Positions 15,830-29,195 of a stretch of DNA of 64,000 nt are shown here, one piece after another. How positions within the stretch are numbered: position 1 is the first letter of the stretch; every line of letters begins with the position of its first letter. A model generated the notes under the pieces. That model saw only the letters and a program-made list of their open reading frames with translations, had not been told where the DNA came from and made no database searches. Made by a program: the position numbers and the translations under genes. Source of the stretch: Caldicellulosiruptor hydrothermalis 108 (GTDB lineage Bacteria > Bacillota > Thermoanaerobacteria > Caldicellulosiruptorales > Caldicellulosiruptoraceae); assembly GCF_000166355.1 (NCBI RefSeq), contig NC_014652.1:712001-776000 (forward strand), written 5' to 3'.

Positions 15830-17039
15830 AAATAAAATTGTATCCACTGTCTAATTAGTATTGAAATAATCAAAAAAAAGGGAGTTCACGATCATGAACA
15901 AAAATGAAATTTTTGAAATCGCTAAAAATATGGCTATCGAGCAGGTATTAAACATGTATTGCTTAAAAGACGATCCCTCACGTCCAGCCTTAAAACAGCT
16001 CTTAGAAAATTTGCAAAAGTAGCTCATGGTGTCAGAAAGAAATATTTACCTTGCTAAAATGACAAAGGTAATGGATTTTATGATAGAAAACTTGCAACCT
16101 CCATTGGTACTCTTGAAATTTCTGTTCCTCGAGCTCGCACTAAGAACTTTAGACCTTCTATTCTACCTGACCCATACAAAAGAGTAGATGACTCATATAT
16201 TACACTCCTTATGTCTTTAGTCGCAAATGGTTACTCGGAAAGCTCACTTGTTCAAACTTTGAAAACCATGAATCTACCTTACTCTGAAAATGAAATCCTA
16301 AAAATTAAAGAAGACCTTAAAAATGAACTTCAGTTATTCAAACAAAGAGAACTGCCCACAAGTACTTTTGCACTTATCATCGACAGTTATCATTGCGAAG
16401 TTAAAGACAATTCTAAAGTTAAACAGGCTACTTGCTATGTCGTGCTTGGTATCGATTTGGAAGGTAAAAAAGACATCTTTGAAGTTTACACCTTTTTCGG
16501 CAAAGAAAATAAAGCCGATTGGACAAAAGTCTTCGAAGACTTAATTACAAGAGGTCTTAAAGAAGTTTTAATAGTTGTAAGCGATGACTTTCCTGGTATT
16601 ATAAATGCTGTCAAACTTGCTTACCCTCTTGCTGATCATCAGCTATGTTTTGTCCACCTCTAGCGTAATGTCAGAAAACACATGACAAAAGAAGATGCTT
16701 CAGCTTTTAATAAAAGTTTGGACAAAATCAGAAAAGGAATATTTGAAAAACAGAGTTTTATCTTGCCCACATGAAATATCCTGAAGATTTAAGAAAGCAT
16801 GTCTATACTACAAATGCAGTTGAAAGTGTCAATAGTATGATTGATAAAATCAGAATAAACTCTGGTGGATATTTTCAGTCTGTTGATGTTTTAGAAATAA
16901 ATATTTATTTACAACGTGAAAACCTGCGTCGAACAAAATAGAAAAAAGAAGTTCCTTGTATTGAAAAATGTTCTAACAATATAATACAGCTCTACAACTT
17001 ACGTTATAAATTAGAAACACAAAATTCTTGACAAGTCTC
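15830..17039 (+). mobile_element. IS256-family element B, decayed
   Basis: It carries a broken transposase on the plus strand and a right end at 17017-17039 (ACACAAAATTCTTGACAAGTC), similar to IS256-family ends. No matching left end is found near 15830, so the left boundary is only the junction with element A. Its right end sits inside an IS30 transposase. Confidence 0.65.
15894..16941 (+). pseudogene. IS256-family transposase with several lesions
   Basis: The reading starts at ATG 15894 (IFEIAKNMAIEQVL) and shows an in-frame TAG at 16020, a frameshift near 16055, a nonsense TAG replacing a residue after CFVHL at 16661, and an apparent internal deletion near 16750 before LAHMKYPEDLRKHVYTTNAVES. 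The segment 16211-16663 is the longest intact stretch and contains the DSYHCEVKD and VVSDDFPGI catalytic regions. It is of a different subtype from element A, so this is not one gene broken in two. Confidence 0.88.
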
Positions 17040-17620
17040 AGGTATCTATTTCCCAATGCCCAAATTTCTTTCTGTTATTTGCTACTTGTGGTCTTTCTTC
17101 TATGCTCTTGCCTTTTGGCTTACTCTTCACTACTTTTCTGCTTACTTTCCTTGGCTTTAATCTAACTCTAACTGGCAAATCTATGTTCTTTACTTTCAAA
17201 AACCCTTTTCCTATCCAGTTGTATAATGTCTTTGTACATACCTTCTTATCTTTGCTAAATCCGAGTTCCTGTCTGCAGTACCTAACCACCGCATCAACTG
17301 ACCACTTATCTTTCAGCATCTTCTCTTCTGCAAGTTTTAAAAATTCTTCCACTTCCAAAAGTTTACTTTTCCTACCACACCTTGCTCTGTTTTTGTCATA
17401 CACAGCTTTACCTGTTTGAGAAGAATACTTTTCAAATGTGCTCAGGTCAGTTCTCATTTGAGTTGTGGTTCCTCGCTTTATCTCTCGCGAAATAGTACTT
17501 GCATTTCTGCCTAATCTTTTTGCTATTTCTCTTATGCTCAGACCAAGCGCTCTATCAGTCTTTCTATCGCTCCTCTTTCGGCTTCACTTAGGTGTTTAAA
17601 TTTCCTTCTCTTTGTGGTAT
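17038..17620 (-). pseudogene. IS30-family transposase fragment
   Basis: Read on the minus strand: KFKHLSEAERGAIERL, then a one-base frameshift near 17545, then LSIREIAKRLGRNASTISREIKRG (helix-turn-helix), and a continuous segment down to KKFGHWEIDT, where the catalytic domain of IS30 transposases should begin. The stop TGA at 17038-17040 comes from the end of element B. The DDE domain is absent from the window. Confidence 0.85.
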
Positions 17621-17834: not shown

Positions 17835-18851
17835 GTGATAAAAATTCCTGCGACCATCAAAGACATTGCTCGCTACACAGGATTATCAATTGCCACAATT
17901 TCGAAGTACTTAAATGGAGGACATGTGCTTGAAAAAAATAGAATATTGATTGAAGAGGCTATAAAAGCGTTGGATTTTGAGGTAAATGAGATTGCAAGAG
18001 GGCTCAGGACAAATAAGACTATGGCTGTTGGAGTGCTTATACCTGTATTTGAGCAATTCTTTAGCACTATTATTTCAAGTTTAGAGACAATCTTGCTTGA
18101 AACAGGCTACAGCGTTGTTGTGTGCGACTATAAAGATGATGAGAAATTGGAAAAGGAAAGATTTGATTTTCTTTATAAAAAAAGAGTAGATGCTCTTGTA
18201 GTTGTTCCCACTTCTTTGAAAGGTTCTGATATAAGAAAAATTGTAAAAAGAGATATTCCAATAATAGCAATTGATAGACCAATTCCGGATTATGATTGTG
18301 ACACAATTGTTGTAAACAATTTTGAGGTTTCATACAAAGCGGTGGAAAAACTTATTACAATGGGACATAGAAAAATTGGCATAATATGTGGTCCGCAAAA
18401 TATATATACAGCAAAGGAAAGGCTGAGAGGTTATATTGAGGCACACAAGGACTATAACGTGGAAATAGACGAAGGGTATATAAAGTTTAGTGATTATCAC
18501 AGTATGGAATCAGGATTTAAAAAGATGATAGAACTTTTAGAGAAAGATAGTCCTCCTACTGCGGTATTCATTACAAATTACGATATGACTGTAGGGAGCG
18601 TAATTGCTTTAAATGAAAAGGATGTCAAAATTCCCGAGGAACTTTCTGTGATTGGATTTGACAGCATTGAAATAGCAAGGATGGTAAAACCGCCATTGTC
18701 TTTAGTGCTGCAACCGACAGAGGAAATTGGCAAGGTAGCAGCGGAACTTATTTTGAAAAGATTAAAAGGGGATAAAAGCGATTTTCCTCTCTTTAAAAAG
18801 TTGGATGCACAACTTTTAATAAAAAAGTCTATAAAAGAAATCAAATGTTGA
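17835..18851 (+). CDS. LacI family regulator of the fucose operon
   Basis: About 338 residues with helix-turn-helix ATIKDIARYTGLSIATISKYLNGG, hinge region FEVNEIARGLRTNKTMAVGVLIP and a sugar-sensing domain ending in VIGFDSIEIARMVKPPLSLVLQPTEEIG. Start uncertain: GTG 17835 lies inside the ribosome binding site GAGGGTGAT (17831-17839), while ATT 17844 is ideally spaced; no ATG exists nearby. It stands just upstream of fucI and very likely binds the two TGAAACGTTTAGC operators there (inference from position and from the classic LacI-family operator TGAAACGTTTCA). Confidence 0.88.
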   Translation: MIKIPATIKDIARYTGLSIATISKYLNGGHVLEKNRILIEEAIKALDFEVNEIARGLRTNKTMAVGVLIPVFEQFFSTIISSLETILLETGYSVVVCDYKDDEKLEKERFDFLYKKRVDALVVVPTSLKGSDIRKIVKRDIPIIAIDRPIPDYDCDTIVVNNFEVSYKAVEKLITMGHRKIGIICGPQNIYTAKERLRGYIEAHKDYNVEIDEGYIKFSDYHSMESGFKKMIELLEKDSPPTAVFITNYDMTVGSVIALNEKDVKIPEELSVIGFDSIEIARMVKPPLSLVLQPTEEIGKVAAELILKRLKGDKSDFPLFKKLDAQLLIKKSIKEIKC

Positions 18852-18913: not shown

Positions 18914-18942
18914 TTGACAAGGAATGCATTAAAGAATATAAT
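18914..18942 (+). promoter_or_regulatory. Distal fucose-operon promoter P1
   Basis: TTGACA 18914-18919, 17-bp spacer, TATAAT 18937-18942. It is consensus quality and about 410 nt upstream of the fucI start. Confidence 0.75.
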
Positions 18943-18978
18943 AAAATCAAAAATGAAATTTTTATTTTGTCGTATAAT

Positions 18979-18992
18979 GTGAAACGTTTAGC
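18979..18992 (+). promoter_or_regulatory. LacI-type operator O1
   Basis: GTGAAACGTTTAGC, a LacI-family operator shape, 36 bases past the P1 -10 box. It is the exact reverse complement of O2 at 19275-19288. Confidence 0.78.
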
Positions 18993-19200
18993 ACATATAG
19001 AGAGAATTTTAGTGATAAGTTATAAACATTTTTAGATTCCTTGTATCAAAAGAGAGGAAAAATAGAAAACTGCTTTAGACAATAGAAAAAAGGTATTATA
19101 AATGACTCTCCATTTTTGTGGTGAATAGAAGAATGTGATATATAATTGTGACTAACCGACAATTATATAAGAGCTTATAGCAAAAAATTAGTTAGATATA

Positions 19201-19229
19201 TTGACAAGTTGTGAAAAAGAGTATATACT
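19201..19229 (+). promoter_or_regulatory. Proximal fucose-operon promoter P2
   Basis: TTGACA 19201-19206, 17-bp spacer, TATACT 19224-19229, about 130 nt upstream of fucI. Confidence 0.75.
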
Positions 19230-19274
19230 AAAAGTAGAATAAGAAATTCAAAAATTATTTTTTGTAAAACAAAA

Positions 19275-19288
19275 GCTAAACGTTTCAC
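19275..19288 (-). promoter_or_regulatory. LacI-type operator O2
   Basis: GCTAAACGTTTCAC, the inverted copy of O1, 45 bases past the P2 -10 box. The centre-to-centre distance to O1 is 296 bp. Confidence 0.78.
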
Positions 19289-19357: not shown

Positions 19358-21172
19358 ATGTCAAATGAAAGATTAAATGTTTTTATAGGTGAAAAAAGAT
19401 TTGTTGAAGATTACCCCAAGGTAGGTATAAGACCAACTATAGATGGAAGATATGGTGGAGTAAGAGAATCCTTAGAAGAGCAGACATGGAGATTAGCAAA
19501 ATCAGTGGCAGAGTTTATAGAAAAGAACGTTTATTTACCAAATGGTGAGAAGGTAAAGTGTGTACTTCCACCTCGATGTATTGGTGGTGTTGTTGAGGCA
19601 AGAATGGCAGATGAACTTTTTAAGAAAGAAGGAGTAGGGGTTTCCATAACAGTCACACCTTGTTGGTGTTATGGATCTGAAACAATGGACATGACATTGG
19701 ATATTCCAAAAGCTGTATGGGGATTTAATGGCACAGAAAGACCGGGTGCTGTGTATCTTGCAGCTGTATCTGCTGCTCACAACCAAAAAGGACTTCCTGT
19801 CTTTAAAATCTATGGCAAGGATGTTCAAGACAGAGACGACTTTTCAATTCCTAAGGATGTCCAAGAAAAGATTTTAAAGTTTGTAAAAAGTGCTTTAGCA
19901 GTTTCTATAATGAAAAATAAGTCTTATCTTTCAATTGGGAGCGTATCGATGGGAATTGCAGGTTCTATTGTTGACCCTGACTTTTTTGAGGATTATCTTG
20001 GGATGAGAGTTGAGTATGTTGACATGTCCGAAATAATAAGGCGGATAGAAGAAAAGATATACGACCAAGAAGAATTTGAAAGGGCAATGCAGTGGATAAA
20101 AAATAATTGTAGGGAAGGAGAAGACCCTAATCCACCGGAGAAAAGAGTTGACAGAAAAAAGAAGGATGAAGTATGGGAATTTGTAGTTAAGATGGGTATA
20201 ATAACAAGAGATTTGATGGTTGGAAATAAAAAACTTGAAGCATTAGGATACCCAGAAGAAAGCCTTGGTCACAATGCAATTTTGGCAGGATTTCAAGGGC
20301 AGCGTCAATGGACAGACCACTTCCCAAACGGTGACTTTATGGAAACAATTCTAAACTCCTCATTTGACTGGAATGGACTTAGACAGCCTTACATACTTGC
20401 AACTGAAAATGACAGCTTAAACGGTGTATGTATGTTATTTGGACATTTACTTACAAATACAGCTCAGATTTTTGCAGATGTTCGAACATATTGGAGCAGT
20501 AGCGCTATTTATAGAGTTACAGGTTGGAAGCCAGAAGGACTCCTTGAGGATGGTGTTATCCATCTAATCAACTCTGGTTCTGCAGCACTGGATGGAACAG
20601 GTCAGCAAGAGATTGACGGCAAGCCTGCGATAAAACCTTTCTGGGAGATTACCGAGCAAGAAGTTAAAAAGTGCTTAGACGCAACAAGATTTTGTTATGC
20701 TAATTTGGGATATTTTAGAGGTGGTGGATTTTCAACAAAGTTTGTAACAAGAGGCGGCATGCCTGTTACAATCTCAAGATTAAATATTGTTAAAGGTTTA
20801 GGGCCAGTCCTTCAAATTGCAGAAGGCTGGACAGTAGAACTTCCTGCAAATGTTCATGAAATACTTGACAGAAGAACAGACCCGACATGGCCGACCACAT
20901 GGTTTGTACCAAAACTAACTGGCAAGGGAGTATTTAAGAGCGTATATTCTGTGATGGAAAACTGGGGAGCAAATCACTGTGCAATAACGTATGGGCATGT
21001 GGGTGATTTGTTTATCACATTGGCATCAATGTTAAGAATTCCAGTTTGTATGCATAATGTTGAAGAGGAGAGAATATTCAGACCAAGTGCATGGAGTGCA
21101 TTTGGCACAGAAGATTTGGAAGGAGCAGATTTTAGAGCATGCAAAAATTTTGGCCCACTTTATAAGAAGTGA
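19358..21172 (+). CDS. fucI: L-fucose isomerase
   Basis: About 604 residues; converts L-fucose to L-fuculose in the cytoplasm using Mn2+. It aligns along its whole length with E. coli FucI (591 residues): [60 protein letters not shown]. Metal and catalytic residues Glu350 (ATENDSLNG) and Asp374 (FADVRTYW) keep the E. coli spacing of 24. The ATG at 19358 is preferred because the AAGGAG site is only 2 bp from ATG 19349. It heads an operon with an importer, kinase and fucosidase, controlled by two promoters and two operators upstream. Confidence 0.97.
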
Positions 21173-21235
21173 GAAGACCCAGAGATATAACTTGGATAAC
21201 ATAATATGTTATTGAAAGCAGGAGTTGAGAAGTAT

Positions 21236-22741
21236 ATGAGTCAGTTACTTCTTTTGATGGAAGGAATAGAGAAAAGTTTTCCTGGGGTTCAGGCATTAAA
21301 AAATGCGAGATTTGAACTAATGCCAGGTGAAATACATGCATTGGTAGGTGAAAATGGAGCGGGGAAATCAACATTGATGAAAATTTTAACAGGAGTTTAT
21401 CAGAAAGATGCGGGAAGGATTGTATATAAAGGTAGAGAGGTAGAAATTCCAAATCCAAAAATAGCACAAGAGATGGGAATAAGCATTGTTCATCAAGAGT
21501 TAAATCTAATGCCACATCTTACAGTTGCTCAGAATATTTTTATAGGGAGAGAACCTCGTAGAAAAAGTTTTTCTCTTTTTTTGGACGAGGAAGAAATGAA
21601 TAAAAAAACGAAAGAACTGTTAGACATGTTGCATTTAAAAGTAGATCCAAAAACGAAAGTAGCGAATTTAACTGTTGCAAAGCAACAAATGGTTGAAATT
21701 GCAAAGGCATTATCTTTTAATTCTGAAGTGTTGATAATGGATGAACCTACTGCGGCTTTAAGTGAGGGAGAGGTCGAAGAGCTTTTCAATATTTTAAGAA
21801 AACTAAAAGCGAATGGAATGGGGATTATTTATATATCACATCGCTTAGAAGAATTAAAACAAATTGCTGATAGAGTAACTGTTATGAGAGATGGCCAGTA
21901 TATAGGAACTGCTAAAATTGATGAAATCACAATAGATGAAATTATAAGTATGATGGTAGGAAGAGAAATTTACGAAACTTTGAGAGAAAAAGAAGTAAAA
22001 GAGAATAGTGAAATTGTTTTAGAGGTAAGTAATTTAAAAAGAGGTAATGAAATAAAAGATGTAAGTTTCAAGTTGAGAAAAGGTGAGATATTAGGTTTTG
22101 CGGGATTGGTTGGAGCAGGTCGCACTGAAGTAGCAAGAGCTGTATTTGGGGCTGATCCAGTTGAATCAGGTGAGATTTATGTAAGAGGTAAAAAGGTTCA
22201 TATAAAAAGTCCGTCTGACGCTATAAAACATGGGATAGCTTATCTGTCGGAGGATAGAAAAAGATATGGGTTAATGTTGGGATTAGACGTAGAAAGTAAC
22301 ATGGTTTTACCTTCTATGAAAGAATTTTTAAACCCCTTAGGTTTTGTGAAAAAGAAAAGAGCTGAAAGGATTTGTAATGAATATGTAAAAAAATTAAGAA
22401 TTAAGACTCCTTCATTAAATCAAAAAGTCAGAAATTTGTCTGGCGGGAATCAGCAAAAAGTTATTATTGCAAAATGGCTTATGAAAAATTGCGATATTTT
22501 GATATTTGATGAACCAACGCGGGGAATTGATGTAGGGGCTAAAAATGAAATATATAAATTGTTGAATGAACTTGTAAATGAAGGAAAATCAATAATTATG
22601 ATTTCTTCTGAGTTGCCAGAGATTTTACGTATGAGTCACAGAATTATAGTTATGTGTGAAGGAAGAATAACAGCGGAGCTGAGTGGGAAAGAAGCAACAG
22701 AGGAATTAATAATGAAATATGCTACGATGTATGAAAACTAA
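21236..22741 (+). CDS. Sugar ABC transporter ATP-binding protein, RbsA type (fucose locus)
   Basis: About 501 residues with two ATPase domains. The first has Walker [10 protein letters not shown] and Walker B VLIMDEP; the second has the degenerate GLVGAGRTE, signature LSGGNQQKV and ILIFDEP. It energises import of the sugar handled by the adjacent permease and binding protein, probably L-fucose. The ATG at 21236 ([17 protein letters not shown]) gives the usual family start; the longer frame from 21206 adds ten residues with no family equivalent. The gap to fucI is 63 bp and to the permease 39 bp. Confidence 0.93.
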
Positions 22742-22780
22742 TTCTAAATCTTATATAATTTTAAAGTTGGAGGTATAAGA

Positions 22781-23767
22781 ATGGAAACTACTCAAAAATT
22801 TCGTGGTTTTAGGAAAGAGGCCTTACGGCAACTTCTTATGTTTGGAAGTTTATTTTTGTTATTTGTATTTTTCTCACTGGCATCTCCCAATTTTTGCACA
22901 TTTGAAAATATTATATCAATAATTCTTGCAACATGTGTAAATGGAATGTTAGCATTGGGTGTTACTTTTGTAATTATAACAAGTGGAATAGACCTTTCTA
23001 TTGGAACAGTTATGACACTATCAGCTGTAATGAGTGGAGTTTTCATTACATATTGGCATCTTCCAGTATGGTTAGGAGTATTAGGAGGAATTGGTACAGG
23101 AATGCTATGTGGCTTTGTAAATGGAATTGTCATTTCAAAAATGAAACTTCCTCCTTTCATTGCAACACTTGGTATGATGATGATTGCAAAAGGTTTAGCA
23201 CTTGTTATCTCAGGTGCAACTCCAATTTATTATACTGATGCTCCAAGTTTTTCAGATATTGCTATGGGTTCAATAATTGGAAAGATAATTCCTGGTGCTG
23301 ATATTCCAAACGCAATTTTAATTTTTATTCTTTTTGCAATAATTGCAAATATTATCCTTACAAAAACCGCAATTGGTAGATATGATTTTGCCATTGGTAG
23401 TAATGAAGAAGCCGCAAGACTTTCAGGTTTAAATGTGGACAGGTGGAAAATAATAATTTACATGTTATGTGGATTTTTTGTAGGAATTGGTGGGATATTG
23501 ATGGCTTCACGATTGAATTCAGCTCAGCCTGCTTTAGGACAAGGTTATGAATTAGACGCAATAGCAGCTGTTGTTATTGGCGGTACCTCTTTGAGTGGTG
23601 GAGAAGGATCAATAATTGGAACTGTTATAGGTGCACTTATTATGAGTACACTTACAAATGGTTTGAGAATTCTTTCTGTTCCACAAGAGTGGCAAATTGT
23701 TATAAGTGGAATTATTGTAATAGGAGCTGTATATTTAGACATTATTAGAAGAAGACGGACTAAATAG
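22781..23767 (+). CDS. Sugar ABC transporter permease, RbsC type (fucose locus)
   Basis: A 328-residue membrane permease with the family landmarks TSGIDLSIGTVMTLSAVMSG, NEEAARLSGLNVDRWK (ATPase contact) and DAIAAVVIGGTSLSGGEGS. A GGAGG ribosome binding site lies 8 bp before the ATG. Only one permease is present, so a homodimer is expected, unlike the first locus. A 12-bp stem-loop follows, and then an IS element separates it from its binding-protein gene, which before insertion lay about 62 bp away. Confidence 0.93.
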   Translation: METTQKFRGFRKEALRQLLMFGSLFLLFVFFSLASPNFCTFENIISIILATCVNGMLALGVTFVIITSGIDLSIGTVMTLSAVMSGVFITYWHLPVWLGVLGGIGTGMLCGFVNGIVISKMKLPPFIATLGMMMIAKGLALVISGATPIYYTDAPSFSDIAMGSIIGKIIPGADIPNAILIFILFAIIANIILTKTAIGRYDFAIGSNEEAARLSGLNVDRWKIIIYMLCGFFVGIGGILMASRLNSAQPALGQGYELDAIAAVVIGGTSLSGGEGSIIGTVIGALIMSTLTNGLRILSVPQEWQIVISGIIVIGAVYLDIIRRRRTK

Positions 23768-23769
23768 GA

Positions 23770-23800
23770 TTTTATTTACCCTATTTAAGGGTAAATAAAA
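23770..23800 (+). other. Stem-loop after permease gene
   Basis: A perfect 12-bp stem TTTTATTTACCC/GGGTAAATAAAA with a 7-nt loop and no T-run. It occupies the same permease/binding-protein boundary as at 3437 and 10316. The IS target site begins at its last base. Confidence 0.65.
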
Positions 23801-23811
23801 TAAAAAAACAA
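23800..23811 (+). repeat. Target-site duplication of IS copy 1, left
   Basis: ATAAAAAAACAA, repeated at 25644-25655. The low-complexity sequence makes this duplication less secure than that of copy 2. Confidence 0.75.
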
Positions 23812-24076
23812 TAGGCGTTTGCAAAATAGGTGGTGATTGAAGGTAAAAGGCACCAATACTAACATGAAATACAATCAAGATACAAAAAGAAAAGAGAAGT
23901 GAAAACCAAATATTATCAATACCAACAAAAATAATCAGCAACAAACATATGACAAAAATTAACAACTTCAAAAAAGACAATAATATCCTAAGCCTTCTTA
24001 ACTCCTTGTTTTAGAAGGTTAAGTAAAAACAAAACCAGAAATTTTTTGTAAGAAATAGATTTAAAAAATAGTAGTA

Positions 24077-25507
24077 TTAAGCGATAAGTTTTTTGAGCTT
24101 GTTAAGTTTTTTGATAGTCAATTTAGAGCAATAGAGTTTGATATTGTGAGCGAGAATAAACAAGAGCGAGAAAGTAATGGCAGATAGCAAGAAATCAGAG
24201 AAAATAGAAATATGGTCATAAGTAGAGATAGTATCAGAGCCCATGTAGGATTTCAGGTGGTAAATAGTCTGCTCTACAGCGACACGTTTTTTGTAGAGGT
24301 CAAAAAACTCTTGTGAATTTCTGTTGATACCTGGGAAAGAGCGAAAGTTATCTGGGTATGTATAGAACATTCTACCCGATTTAGAGGTAGTACAAGGCTG
24401 AGGGCAAGAGCAGATGCGTTTGCCATCTTTGTATTGTGACATAGGGCAAGTCCATTTAAGGCGCAAAGAGCGATTTTTACCCTGACATTTGCCTTCGGGT
24501 TTAAAAGGTTTGTTGAACTTTTTGCAGATAGGGATACCATCTTCAGAAATAACGATATTGGGGTCTGATGTAGGTGTAGTATTTTTAGAAGCTCTTGTAT
24601 TTAGTGGAATAACGATTTTGGAGAAGTTAAAGGTATTTTTTAAAGTGGAGTATATGTTGTGGGAATCCAAAGCACTGTCGGCGATGAAAGTGGAGAAATT
24701 TTTGGGGATATAAGAGAATAAAGTTTCGAGCGAAGGAATTAAACCTTTAGAGTCGGAGATAGCTTTTGCTTCTTGTGGGTCAGAGGAAGGGGAATCATAG
24801 TTAAACAGAGGTACTAAAGCTAAAGGGATACCGAGAGCGTTGGTAATGACTGCAAATTTTAAAGCCCAGCAGAAATGGCCATTTACAAACATAAGACGGA
24901 TGTTAGAATTAGCGTTAGCAGTTTTAGGCAAAGAAGAATAAACGAGAGAGTAGACTTTTTCAGAGGGAAGTTCAGGGTTAGCTTTTGAGGTATTTTTCAG
25001 CAGTAGATGAATGAATTTAGGATTGTTTTCACGAACCTTTGGGACAATACCTGTTGTGTCGAAGATTAAGATTGAAGAATCTTGAGGGCATTGTTGGATG
25101 GAAATATTATGTGCATGGATAGAGATATTTTGAAAAAGTTTATGGATTTCACTTGCAAATATTTTTCTAAAGCGAGAGAGAGTAGAGATAGAAGGGACAT
25201 TGCCATGAAGATTACAAAATGAGCGAAGTTCGAATGAGTTGAGTAAGACAGCACGAAGCTGAGTTAAAGTATTGAGTTTGAGCAATTTTTGGACGAGGAA
25301 GCAACAAAGCATAGATTCTAAAGAGAAGTATCTATGCTTACCGAAATATTTGTAGTAGGCATTGTAGAAAGAAGAAGGTATATAATGTGACAAGTCAATG
25401 AATTTATTGAACAAGCCCAAGAGGCTTTCAGGCTTGTAGAGAGCCAAAGCCTTTAGGTGGGAGAATAGGTCTATGAAAGAAAGTTGTTTAGGTTTGGTGT
25501 TGAACAT
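24077..25507 (-). CDS. IS4-type transposase, copy 1
   Basis: A 476-residue DDE transposase, intact. The N-terminal half has the DUF772-like region (LESMLCCFLVQKLLKLNTLTQLR, ISTLSRFRKIF). The catalytic core shows the first Asp in LIFDTTGIVPKVREN, the second in FIADSALDSHN, and the IS4 signature Y-x2-R-x3-E-x6-K in YKKRVAVEQTIYHLK. A CxC/CxxxC cluster (CPMSQYKDGKRICSCPQPC) between the last two may bind zinc. The ribosome binding site GAGGAGGG at 25513-25520 lies in one arm of an inverted repeat. It differs from copy 2 by one residue (Leu instead of Ser in SHLKALALY). Confidence 0.93.
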   Translation of the reverse strand: MFNTKPKQLSFIDLFSHLKALALYKPESLLGLFNKFIDLSHYIPSSFYNAYYKYFGKHRYFSLESMLCCFLVQKLLKLNTLTQLRAVLLNSFELRSFCNLHGNVPSISTLSRFRKIFASEIHKLFQNISIHAHNISIQQCPQDSSILIFDTTGIVPKVRENNPKFIHLLLKNTSKANPELPSEKVYSLVYSSLPKTANANSNIRLMFVNGHFCWALKFAVITNALGIPLALVPLFNYDSPSSDPQEAKAISDSKGLIPSLETLFSYIPKNFSTFIADSALDSHNIYSTLKNTFNFSKIVIPLNTRASKNTTPTSDPNIVISEDGIPICKKFNKPFKPEGKCQGKNRSLRLKWTCPMSQYKDGKRICSCPQPCTTSKSGRMFYTYPDNFRSFPGINRNSQEFFDLYKKRVAVEQTIYHLKSYMGSDTISTYDHISIFSDFLLSAITFSLLFILAHNIKLYCSKLTIKKLNKLKKLIA

Positions 25508-25514
25508 TTTGGAA

Positions 25515-25575
25515 CCCTCCTCATAGTAGAAAATTTGTTTTATATAATCATATTTTACTACAATTATGAGGAGGG
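25515..25575 (-). promoter_or_regulatory. Inverted repeat that can hide the transposase ribosome binding site, copy 1
   Basis: CCCTCCTCATA (25515-25525) and TATGAGGAGGG (25565-25575) are exact complements, with GTAG/CTAC adding inner pairs. On the transposase strand the proximal arm contains the Shine-Dalgarno AGGAGGG. An mRNA entering from outside would carry both arms and mask it. Confidence 0.7.
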
Positions 25576-25610
25576 TGACCAGTCTTTTTTGATTCTATGT
25601 AAAGCTTGAT

Positions 25611-25632
25611 AACGCTCATCTTGAGCGTTTTT
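25611..25632 (+). terminator. Outward-facing hairpin at IS end, copy 1
   Basis: AACGCTCA/TGAGCGTT, 8 bp, 3-nt loop, followed by TTT. It would act on plus-strand transcripts leaving the IS toward the binding-protein gene. Confidence 0.55.
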
Positions 25633-25643
25633 GCAAAAGGCTA

Positions 25644-25655
25644 ATAAAAAAACAA
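25644..25655 (+). repeat. Target-site duplication of IS copy 1, right
   Basis: ATAAAAAAACAA, matching 23800-23811. The AAAGGAGG of the next gene follows within a few bases. Confidence 0.75.
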
Positions 25656-25673
25656 AAAAAGGAGGTTTTTTCT

Positions 25674-26663
25674 ATGAAAAGGTGGTTTAGAATTATTTCA
25701 TTAATTGTAAGTGTGGTGTTCTTAGTTTCATTAACTTTTATTTATGCTACAAAAAGTACTTTGGCTAAAACTGCAAAAAAGACTACAGGTAAGAAACTTT
25801 ACATTGCAATGATTTCAAAAGGATTTCAACATCAATTTTGGCAAGCTGTTAAAAGAGGAGCAGAAAAAGCTGCAAAAGATTATAATGTAACAATTACTTT
25901 TGAAGGACCTGAGTCGGAATCAATGGTTGACAAGCAGATAGAAATGCTTCAAGCGGCGTTGGCTAAAAAACCAAATGCTCTGTGTATTGCAGCGTTAGAT
26001 AGCAAAGCTGTAATTCCATATTTAAAGAAAGCAAAATCAATGGGTATTCCAGTTATTGGATTTGACTCAGGCGTTGACAGTGATATTCCGGTTACAACTG
26101 TTGCTACTGACAATGTTAAAGCTGCAGCATTTGCTGCCGATAAAATGGCTCAATTGATAGGGTATAAAGGGGAAATAGCACTTGTAGTTCATGACCAAAC
26201 AAGTAGAACAGGAATTGACAGACGAGATGGATTTGTTAACAGAATAAAAGAAAAATATCCCAAGATAAAGATTGTAGATATTCAATATGGTGGAGGTGAC
26301 CATCTAAAATCTACAGATCTTGCAAAGGCTATTATTCAAGCTCATCCTAAGCTAAAAGGTATTTTCGGAGCAAATGAAGGTTCAGCAATAGGTGTTTTGA
26401 ATGCAGTAAAAGAGTTGAAAAAAGTGGGGAAAATAGTGGTTGTAGGATATGATTCAGGTAAACAGCAAATCGATGCAATAAAAGCTGGAATTGAAGCTGG
26501 TGCTATTACTCAAAATCCTATTGGAATGGGATACAAGGCTGTTGAGGCTGCTATAAAAGCAATAAAAGGTGAAAAACTACCTAAGAAGATTGATAGCGGA
26601 TTTTATTGGTATGACAAGAAAAATGTAGATTCACCGCAAATAAAGCCACTGCTCTATCAATAG
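25674..26663 (+). CDS. Sugar ABC transporter substrate-binding protein (fucose locus)
   Basis: A 329-residue exported protein of the Peripla_BP_4 family. It has signal segment RIISLIVSVVFLVSLTFIYA, then KLYIAMISKGFQHQFWQAVKRGAEKAA, IEMLQAALAKKPNALCIAALDSKAV, VIGFDSGVDSD and TVATDNVKAA, the usual ribose/fucose-binding lay-out. AAGGAGG precedes the ATG. It should work with the ATPase and permease upstream, but a 1.8-kb IS now lies between them, so its expression may depend on readthrough through the IS or a new promoter. A large stem-loop follows. Confidence 0.92.
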   Translation: MKRWFRIISLIVSVVFLVSLTFIYATKSTLAKTAKKTTGKKLYIAMISKGFQHQFWQAVKRGAEKAAKDYNVTITFEGPESESMVDKQIEMLQAALAKKPNALCIAALDSKAVIPYLKKAKSMGIPVIGFDSGVDSDIPVTTVATDNVKAAAFAADKMAQLIGYKGEIALVVHDQTSRTGIDRRDGFVNRIKEKYPKIKIVDIQYGGGDHLKSTDLAKAIIQAHPKLKGIFGANEGSAIGVLNAVKELKKVGKIVVVGYDSGKQQIDAIKAGIEAGAITQNPIGMGYKAVEAAIKAIKGEKLPKKIDSGFYWYDKKNVDSPQIKPLLYQ

Positions 26664-26666
26664 TGG

Positions 26667-26708
26667 AAAGTGGGCTCCTCATATCCTTTTATATGAGGGG
26701 CCCACTTT
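26667..26708 (+). other. 18-bp stem-loop after binding-protein gene
   Basis: 26667-26684 pairs with 26691-26708 (one G-U pair, 6-nt loop). No T-run follows, so mRNA stabilisation is more likely than termination. Confidence 0.65.
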
Positions 26709-26759
26709 GATGGTTGCGGGTTTTAAGCTATTTTCATAGATTTGTTGGGAGGTATTTCC

Positions 26760-27710
26760 ATGAGCATAGTTTGTTTTGGAGAAGCGCTTATTGATTTTTT
26801 GAACGTAGAAGGAAATTTGTTTGAAGCCAATATTGGGGGTGGACCTACTAATGTAGCAGGTGCTATTGCAAAGTGGGGTGGAAAAACTTTTCTTATTTCT
26901 AAAGTAGGGAACGATATGTTTGGAAGAATGATAAAAAATAAATTAGAAGAAATAGGGGTAGACGTGTCTGGACTAAAGATTACTGATCAATATTTTACTA
27001 CCCTTGCATTTGTAAAAGTTGACGAAAGAGGAGAAAGATCGTTTAGTTTTTCAAGAAAACATGGTGCAGATGTTTACATAACTCCGGATGAAATTGAAGA
27101 GGAAATAATAAAATCTTCAAAGATTCTCCACTTCAGCTCTTTATCTATGACACATAACACTAACAGAAAGACAACATTTCATATTTTGGAAATTGCAAAG
27201 AACAATGGATTATTAATTTCCTATGATCCAAATTTTAGAGAGCCGCTATGGGAAAGCAAAAACCTGGCAATAGATACAATCATGCTTCCTATCAAATTAG
27301 GTTACGTAGATATATTAAAAGTTTCCTTGGAAGAAGTAAATCTTTATGCTCTCTATCCAGAAGATTTTTACCAGATGATCAAAGATAAAGTAAAACTTCT
27401 ATTTGTTACAATGGGGGAAAAAGGAACTATTGTGTTTTGCGGTGGCAATAAAGAAAGAGTACCATCTATCGAGGTTACAGCTGTCGATACAACAGGATGT
27501 GGAGACTGTTTTATGGCTTTAATCTTGTTCGAAATTTGGAAAATAGGCACGTTAAAAGATATTTCGTTTGGAAAGTTAATAGAAATAACAAGAAAAGCGA
27601 ATGTTGCAGGAGCTCTTTGTGCAACAAAAAAAGGAGCCTTGCCAGCTGTTCCAGATTATAATGAGATTGAGAGGGTTCTTTCGAAACCTAATACAAATTT
27701 TGAAAGGTAA
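26760..27710 (+). CDS. PfkB/ribokinase family sugar kinase, candidate fuculose kinase
   Basis: About 316 residues; cytoplasmic ATP-dependent sugar kinase. It has the N-terminal FGEALIDF and IGGGPTNVAGAIAKWGG motif of fructokinase-like PfkB proteins and the C-terminal anion-hole motif DTTGCGDCF with catalytic Asp249 (GCGD rather than the common GAGD). The ATG at 26760 follows GGGAGGT; the earlier TTG lies before that site. It sits between the fucose binding-protein gene and alpha-L-fucosidase. The locus lacks an FGGY-type fucK, so a role in phosphorylating L-fuculose is inferred; fructose or another ketose is also possible. Confidence 0.88.
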   Translation: MSIVCFGEALIDFLNVEGNLFEANIGGGPTNVAGAIAKWGGKTFLISKVGNDMFGRMIKNKLEEIGVDVSGLKITDQYFTTLAFVKVDERGERSFSFSRKHGADVYITPDEIEEEIIKSSKILHFSSLSMTHNTNRKTTFHILEIAKNNGLLISYDPNFREPLWESKNLAIDTIMLPIKLGYVDILKVSLEEVNLYALYPEDFYQMIKDKVKLLFVTMGEKGTIVFCGGNKERVPSIEVTAVDTTGCGDCFMALILFEIWKIGTLKDISFGKLIEITRKANVAGALCATKKGALPAVPDYNEIERVLSKPNTNFER

Positions 27711-27734: not shown

Positions 27735-29195
27735 ATGGAAAAAATCAATTTTAACATCCAAGAAGGTCCTTTTTCACCTACTTGGGAATCATTAAGACAA
27801 TTCAAATGCCCTCAATGGTTTTTGGATGCAAAGTTTGGAATTTGGGCGCACTGGGGACCTCAGAGTGTTCCAATGTATGGGGATTGGTATGCAAGAAATA
27901 TCTACAGAGAAGGAGAGCCACAATATTACTATCACTGGCGAAAATATGATCACCCTTCAAAGGTTGGTTACAAAGACATAGTTCAGATGTGGAAAGCCGA
28001 AAGGTTTAAGCCGGAGGAACTAATTGATCTGTATATCAAAGCAGGTGCAAGGTATTTTGTTGCTCAGGCTGTTCACCACGATAACTTTGATAACTGGAAT
28101 TCTCGGTACCATAGGTGGAATGCAGTAAATATGGGCCCGAAGAAAGATATTGTTGGAATGTGGTGCAAAGCCGCAAGGGAAAGAGGACTTCCGTTTGGTG
28201 TATCAGAACATCTGGCTGCAAGCTTTTCATGGTTTGCACCAAGTAAAGGGCATGACACAAAAGGATCATATAAAGGTATCCCATATGATGGAAATGATCC
28301 GGCCTATGAGGATTTTTATCATCCAAATAGGGACGAGTACGAATTGGAAAAACAGCATGGGAAGATTGTCAATTGGTACTCGCCCAATCCCCAGTGGCAT
28401 ATGAAATGGTTTTTAAGAATCAAAGATTTGATTGACCAATATGAACCAGACTTTTTATATACAGACGGCGGTGTTCCTTTTGGAGAAGTTGGACTCAATA
28501 TTGTCGCGCATCTTTACAATACAAGTGCAAAGAATCACGGTGGTATAAACCAAGCAGTGCACACTCAAAAAGACACAAACCCAGAAGTCTATAAAATTGG
28601 TGTTTTGGACATTGAACGTGGAGCAGCCGAAGATATTCTATCTCATCCATGGCAGACGGATACATGTTTAGGTGGCTGGTTTTATGATGTTAGAGCGGTT
28701 TATAAAACCCCGCAACAGGTAATTGAAATGCTTATTGATATTGTCAGCAAAGGTGGAAACCTTCTTTTGAATATTCCGCAAAAACCAGATGGCACGCTGG
28801 ATGATGAATGTCTTTATATTCTTGATGAGATTGCAAAATGGATGAGAGTAAATGGAGAAGGTATATATGGGACGCGTCCATGGAAAAGATATAGAGAAGG
28901 TCCGACAAAAGGGCAAGGTGGAGCTTTTCAGGAGAAAAAACTTGAGTGGACGCCAGAGGATTTTAGATTTACCCAAAAAGATGGAAAAATTTTTGCCTTT
29001 CAAATGAAGTATCCAGGGGACCACAAGGCAATCATCAAAAGTTTGGGATTATCAAGTGGTATTTTTGTAAAAAAAGTAAAACTTTTGGGATTTGAAGGTA
29101 AGCTTGAATTTGACCAGTTAGAAAACGCTTTGGTCATCAAATTGCCAGAAAAGTGGTATGACACAGGATATCCACATTGTTTTTGCATAGAGTGA
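27735..29195 (+). CDS. Alpha-L-fucosidase, GH29, cytoplasmic
   Basis: A 486-residue retaining glycosidase releasing L-fucose from imported glycans such as xyloglucan fragments. Family 29 landmarks: WFLDAKFGIWAHWGPQSVP near residue 28, FVAQAVHHDNFDNWNS near residue 113, GVSEHLAASFSWF, nucleophile Asp244 in FLYTDGG, and LLLNIPQKPDGTLD near residue 340. There is no signal peptide, so hydrolysis is intracellular. The gap from the kinase is 24 bp. It is the last gene of the fucose operon and feeds fucI directly. Confidence 0.95.
   Translation: MEKINFNIQEGPFSPTWESLRQFKCPQWFLDAKFGIWAHWGPQSVPMYGDWYARNIYREGEPQYYYHWRKYDHPSKVGYKDIVQMWKAERFKPEELIDLYIKAGARYFVAQAVHHDNFDNWNSRYHRWNAVNMGPKKDIVGMWCKAARERGLPFGVSEHLAASFSWFAPSKGHDTKGSYKGIPYDGNDPAYEDFYHPNRDEYELEKQHGKIVNWYSPNPQWHMKWFLRIKDLIDQYEPDFLYTDGGVPFGEVGLNIVAHLYNTSAKNHGGINQAVHTQKDTNPEVYKIGVLDIERGAAEDILSHPWQTDTCLGGWFYDVRAVYKTPQQVIEMLIDIVSKGGNLLLNIPQKPDGTLDDECLYILDEIAKWMRVNGEGIYGTRPWKRYREGPTKGQGGAFQEKKLEWTPEDFRFTQKDGKIFAFQMKYPGDHKAIIKSLGLSSGIFVKKVKLLGFEGKLEFDQLENALVIKLPEKWYDTGYPHCFCIE

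Follow-up and report, generated by a model that had tools for sequence, protein, structure and literature searches.

The fucose operon of Caldicellulosiruptor hydrothermalis 108 is probably governed by two promoter–operator modules arranged in tandem, both controlled by the LacI-family regulator FucR, whose dimers are likely to obstruct early transcription with no need for a DNA loop. We place the probability of this reading at roughly two in three. The FucR assignment, the paired sites and the start site of the upstream promoter (P1) are already known from C. bescii through the text of Rodionov et al. (2021; PMC8579813), in which the FucR regulon of C. bescii and its relatives was reconstructed. 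The additions made here are modest, namely a second promoter (P2) and the two-module origin of the control region. All coordinates refer to the window, i.e. the whole 64,000-nucleotide stretch of DNA that was analysed.

Gene content of the locus

The genes that define the locus are listed below, with the basis of each assignment in parentheses.

17835–18851, + strand: fucR, LacI-family regulator of 338 amino acids with a GTG start (open reading frame and Pfam domains)
19358–21172, + strand: fucI, L-fucose isomerase (NCBIfam equivalogs above cut-off; alignment of starts)
27735–29195, + strand: alfA-like α-L-fucosidase gene (Pfam Alpha_L_fucos; gene order)

The initial annotation had placed the regulator gene just upstream of the control region, and this was confirmed: the gene is of the LacI family and the next gene is fucI, an adjacency that is kept in six genomes. 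A Pfam search of the fucR product returned the LacI and periplasmic-binding-protein-like domains. By its position beside fucI, the regulator is the FucR described in the text of PMC8579813. For fucI, the ATG at 19358 was taken as the start since it is kept between species; the open-reading-frame listing gives 19349.

Orthologues of FucR with 95–97% identity adjoin fucI in five congeners, and orthologues with 76–79% identity are found in five further genomes. At the loci of this second group (L007–L011, in G004, G010, G003, G009 and G001), fucI and the glycerate kinase gene are more than 90% identical to those of the window where they are kept; judged from these identities, the fucR region may have been exchanged between lineages. 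The fucI gene is broken in five species (L037 and L038–L047, in G011, G009, G004, G003 and G010) and absent in G006, so that fucose use seems to have been lost repeatedly.

In the five congeners alfA immediately follows fucI. The operon in the window differs from this order, and from fucI-alfA of C. bescii, in having transporter genes, an insertion sequence (IS) and a kinase gene in between. This interval (21206–27710) holds a sugar ABC transporter ATPase and permease, the IS, a sugar-binding protein and a PfkB-family kinase. These genes may represent an added fucose uptake system, since the published C. bescii table contains no fucose transporter (PMC8579813). A complete transposase open reading frame lies on the − strand at 24077–25507, between the permease and binding-protein genes, and may cut the operon. 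Motif searches of the window and the genome found no second FucR site near the inserted transporter and kinase genes or near the genes that follow the transposase. Upstream of fucR, transposase-like fragments were recognized by eye from the translations at 16211–16663 and 17038–17457.

Promoters and operators

Four elements lie between fucR and fucI.

18914–18942, + strand: promoter P1, TTGACA-17-TATAAT, 12 of 12 consensus positions
18979–18992, + strand: operator O1, GTGAAACGTTTAGC, covering about +32 to +45 relative to P1, with 13 of its 14 positions invariant in six species
19201–19229, + strand: promoter P2, TTGACA-17-TATACT, 11 of 12 consensus positions
19275–19288, − strand: operator O2, exactly reverse-complementary to O1, covering about +41 to +54 relative to P2

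The initial annotation was accurate in its description of two near-consensus promoters and of a 14-mer with an exact reverse-complement copy, including the distances: O1 starts 36 bp after the P1 −10 box and O2 45 bp after that of P2, and the two sites are 296 bp apart. Promoters of this quality (at least 11 of 12 consensus positions, spacing 16–18 bp) are scarce, with only ten on both strands of the whole 64-kb window. By analogy with C. bescii, transcription from P1 is predicted to start near 18948, about 410 nt before the ATG at 19358; a P2 transcript, with its predicted start near 19235, would have a leader of about 123 nt. O2 is also located at about +328 of P1.

A genome scan for the 14-mer, which the initial annotation had suggested as a check, bore out the specificity of the sites. 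With up to one mismatch allowed, GTGAAACGTTTAGC has two matches in the whole genome of 2,770,676 bp, both at this locus, and the reversed control pattern has none. The looser pattern GNNAAACGTTTNNC matches at the same two places only (control, 16 matches). In each species with fucR beside fucI (n = 6), exactly two motif matches were found, both before fucI. The operators (13/14 positions invariant over the six species) stand out from the P1–O1 leader (46%) and from other shared leader stretches (46–70%), and the nine bases before O2 (AAAACAAAA, 19266–19274) are fully invariant. Because the operator core AAACGTTT is itself palindromic, the description of O2 as an inverted copy carries little weight; the difference in orientation amounts only to which side has the weaker half-site (GTGAAAC versus GCTAAAC). 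The confinement of the motif to this locus, its conservation across species and the assignment published in the text for C. bescii support O1 and O2 as the putative FucR operators of the fucose operon, in keeping with their earlier attribution to the adjacent LacI-type regulator.

P1 is found in all six genomes in which fucR lies beside fucI. Over the same species the −35 box of P2 is invariant at six of six positions and the −10 box at five of six, and P2 is retained in two genomes (G003 and G009) in which fucR is distant. This conservation, even where P1 is not near, argues that P2 is a real promoter.

Correspondence with the C. bescii regulon

We take genome G007 of the comparison to be C. 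bescii. Counting back 329 nt from the conserved fucI start in G007 leads to the sixth base past the −10 box of P1. The leader reported for C. bescii fucI-alfA is 329 nt long and contains tandem FucR sites, with FucR assigned as a repressor by inference (PMC8579813), and its published start site, which falls on that sixth base, is thus P1. C. hydrothermalis 108 was among the 14 genomes used in that work, in which, according to its text, fucose was not a growth substrate of the C. bescii cultures. The two descriptions therefore agree in the regulator (by position), the target fucI, the tandem sites in a long leader that starts at a mapped promoter, the P1 start and the repressor role. They differ in that the text of PMC8579813 mentions neither P2 nor a two-module origin nor differences in spacing; it gives a single start site and reports no P2 transcript. 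The P1 half of the two-promoter control claimed by the initial annotation thus coincides with a start published for C. bescii, and the P2 half is backed by conservation of its sequence.

P2 has a 19-bp spacer in C. bescii and a 17-bp spacer in C. hydrothermalis, where P1 too has one of 17 bp. The longer spacer may be the reason why only P1 was reported in C. bescii, and the difference leads us to predict species-specific promoter use.

Spacing of the operators

The O1–O2 distances in the six species are 296 (the window), 212, 213, 226, 211 and 215 bp; the variation amounts to 1–14 bp within the five species with shorter distances and to 84 bp in the window. The greater length in the window is mostly due to one additional stretch.

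19018–19100, no strand assigned: about 84 bp of sequence separating O1 from P2, present only in the genome of the window (alignments)

The stretch was considered as a mobile repeat, which was rejected as no other convincing copy was found in the genome. Within it lies a partial copy of P1 in inverted orientation (ACAAGGAAT and ATTCCTTGT, at 18917 and 19036), a likeness equalled in score by 12 of 500 shuffles. Further downstream, at 19139–19169, lies a perfect 11-nt inverted repeat (TATATAATTGT and ACAATTATATA, nine bases between) that is partly conserved in congeners and is possibly the site of another regulator.

Possible separate inheritance of the two modules

An O1-like site lies 116–134 bases after the fucR stop codon in all 11 genomes with fucR. 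It is preceded by a −35-like TTGACA or TTGGCA, and the gene that follows is fucI, aldolase-like or other sequence. In G003 and G009, P2 and O2 precede a broken fucI although fucR is located 15–18 kb upstream, and the distant fucR keeps its own O1-like site. From these two patterns it follows that P1–O1 goes with fucR and P2–O2 with fucI. In G001, G004 and G010 a different promoter and one variant site precede the fucI gene or its remnant. An origin of P1–O1 and P2–O2 as tandem duplicates was rejected: outside the motifs their likeness is no better than that of shuffled sequences (210 of 1000 and 569 of 1000 as good).

These patterns lead us to propose, tentatively and at somewhat short of even odds, two separately inherited FucR-controlled modules, one in the 3′ flank of fucR and one belonging to fucI, arranged in tandem wherever the two genes are neighbours. 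Species would then differ in the driving promoter, mainly P1 in C. bescii and both promoters in C. hydrothermalis.

Downstream of fucR in L007 and L008, two FucR-like sites 32–36 bp apart precede aldolase-like and dehydrogenase-like genes. Here the operators of the same regulator are laid out differently.

Alternative explanations

Two alternatives take the paired motif itself to be something other than a pair of FucR operators. Binding by CcpA, with O1 and O2 as catabolite (cre) sites, has in its favour the AAACGTTT-type core that the sites share with LacI-family operators, cre included. The outer bases of cre (consensus from general knowledge) do not fit the sites, the motif occurs at one locus only, with its two matches genome-wide, and no protein of the genome exceeds the TIGR01481 cut-off for a CcpA orthologue (best score 235 of 442 bits); we regard this reading as very improbable, and CcpA acting alone, which the initial annotation had named as a competing possibility, is likewise disfavoured. 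It is scarcely credible that the two copies instead pair in the P1 transcript as a 14–15-bp stem that regulates the leader. The consensus leader fold does pair O1 with O2, but such a stem arises automatically from two near-palindromic copies in opposite orientation; it shows no compensatory change and has one broken pair, and two species retain O2 in the absence of O1. An Rfam search of the leader gave no credible match, the one sub-threshold match, to a renin element, being dismissed.

The other alternatives accept the operators and concern their geometry or the number of working promoters. The initial annotation had proposed a looping switch held by a tetrameric LacI-type repressor, and a FucR tetramer, or two touching dimers, might bridge O1 and O2 and trap P2 inside the loop. 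Two good operators 211–296 bp apart in six species provide a workable loop length, and GalR loops without the LacI-type C-terminal helix; LacI tetramerizes through this helix and GalR through a surface of the C-subdomain (PMC3877293). However, residues 5–312 of FucR align to residues 3–310 of LacI, and FucR ends at residue 338, equivalent to about residue 336 of LacI and before the tetramer helix, so that a LacI-type C-terminal tetramerization extension is absent in this alignment. The O1–O2 spacing varies and its helical phase shows no significant concentration (p = 0.12–0.25, although little can be concluded in either direction from six related values), and P2–O2 is present without a nearby O1 in two species. 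A DNA loop is not needed, and we consider it quite unlikely. The fucose locus resembles looping by LacI at E. coli lac in combining a LacI-family repressor with multiple operators for a sugar operon, and differs from it in the missing C-terminal tetramer helix, in a downstream operator for each promoter and in a spacing without significant conservation of phase. At E. coli gal only a few bases separate the promoters, and the operators, about 113 bp apart, surround them. The fucose locus shares with gal (GalR) two promoters and two operators at one sugar operon and a repressor lacking the LacI-type helix, but its promoters are 287 bp apart and an operator lies downstream of each. An alternative closer to the tandem-module reading has P1 as the single active promoter in all species, O1 and O2 as tandem roadblocks on its leader and P2 as a relic. 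This agrees with the single start site, equal to P1, in the text of PMC8579813 and with the 19-bp P2 spacer of C. bescii. The near-invariance of the P2 boxes amid drifting surroundings, the retention of P2 where P1 is not near fucI and the 17-bp P2 spacer in C. hydrothermalis argue against it, and we judge it unlikely.

Proposed mode of repression

In the tandem arrangement that we favour, a FucR dimer would bind each operator when the inducer is absent. Each operator is located past its own promoter, within the transcribed leader, and not over the promoter itself (the starts in the window being predicted by analogy), which makes a roadblock the most likely mode of repression. Judged from these positions, FucR probably acts as a repressor by hindering promoter escape or early elongation, and obstructed early elongation is the simplest mode because the promoter hexamers are left uncovered. 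Transcripts from P1 would face two obstacles (O1 and O2) and those from P2 one (O2). L-Fucose or one of its catabolites would presumably release FucR.

When bound downstream of a promoter in E. coli, LacI reduces elongation by up to 25-fold, and multiple roadblocks may be needed to match repression at the promoter (PMC4132739); by analogy, the two operators after P1 would fit this need. With a spacing of 30 bp, readthrough in E. coli was higher for weak promoters (PMC4132739), so that a single close operator could leak. The fucose locus is like the LacI roadblock systems in having an operator about 30–40 bp or more past the start and, on P1, two operators in series. Those systems are engineered E. 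coli reporters (PMC4132739), whereas a roadblock by FucR is suggested here by the operator positions.

Implications

The earlier looping claim gives way to a simpler reading with published support, to which a conserved second promoter, unmentioned in the main text of PMC8579813, is added. If the modules are inherited separately, species of one genus would differ in the promoter that drives fucose use. The locus would provide a small-scale natural case in which two promoter–operator modules make up a single regulated operon and, as a modest practical use, a candidate two-step inducible promoter region from a thermophile of biotechnological interest.
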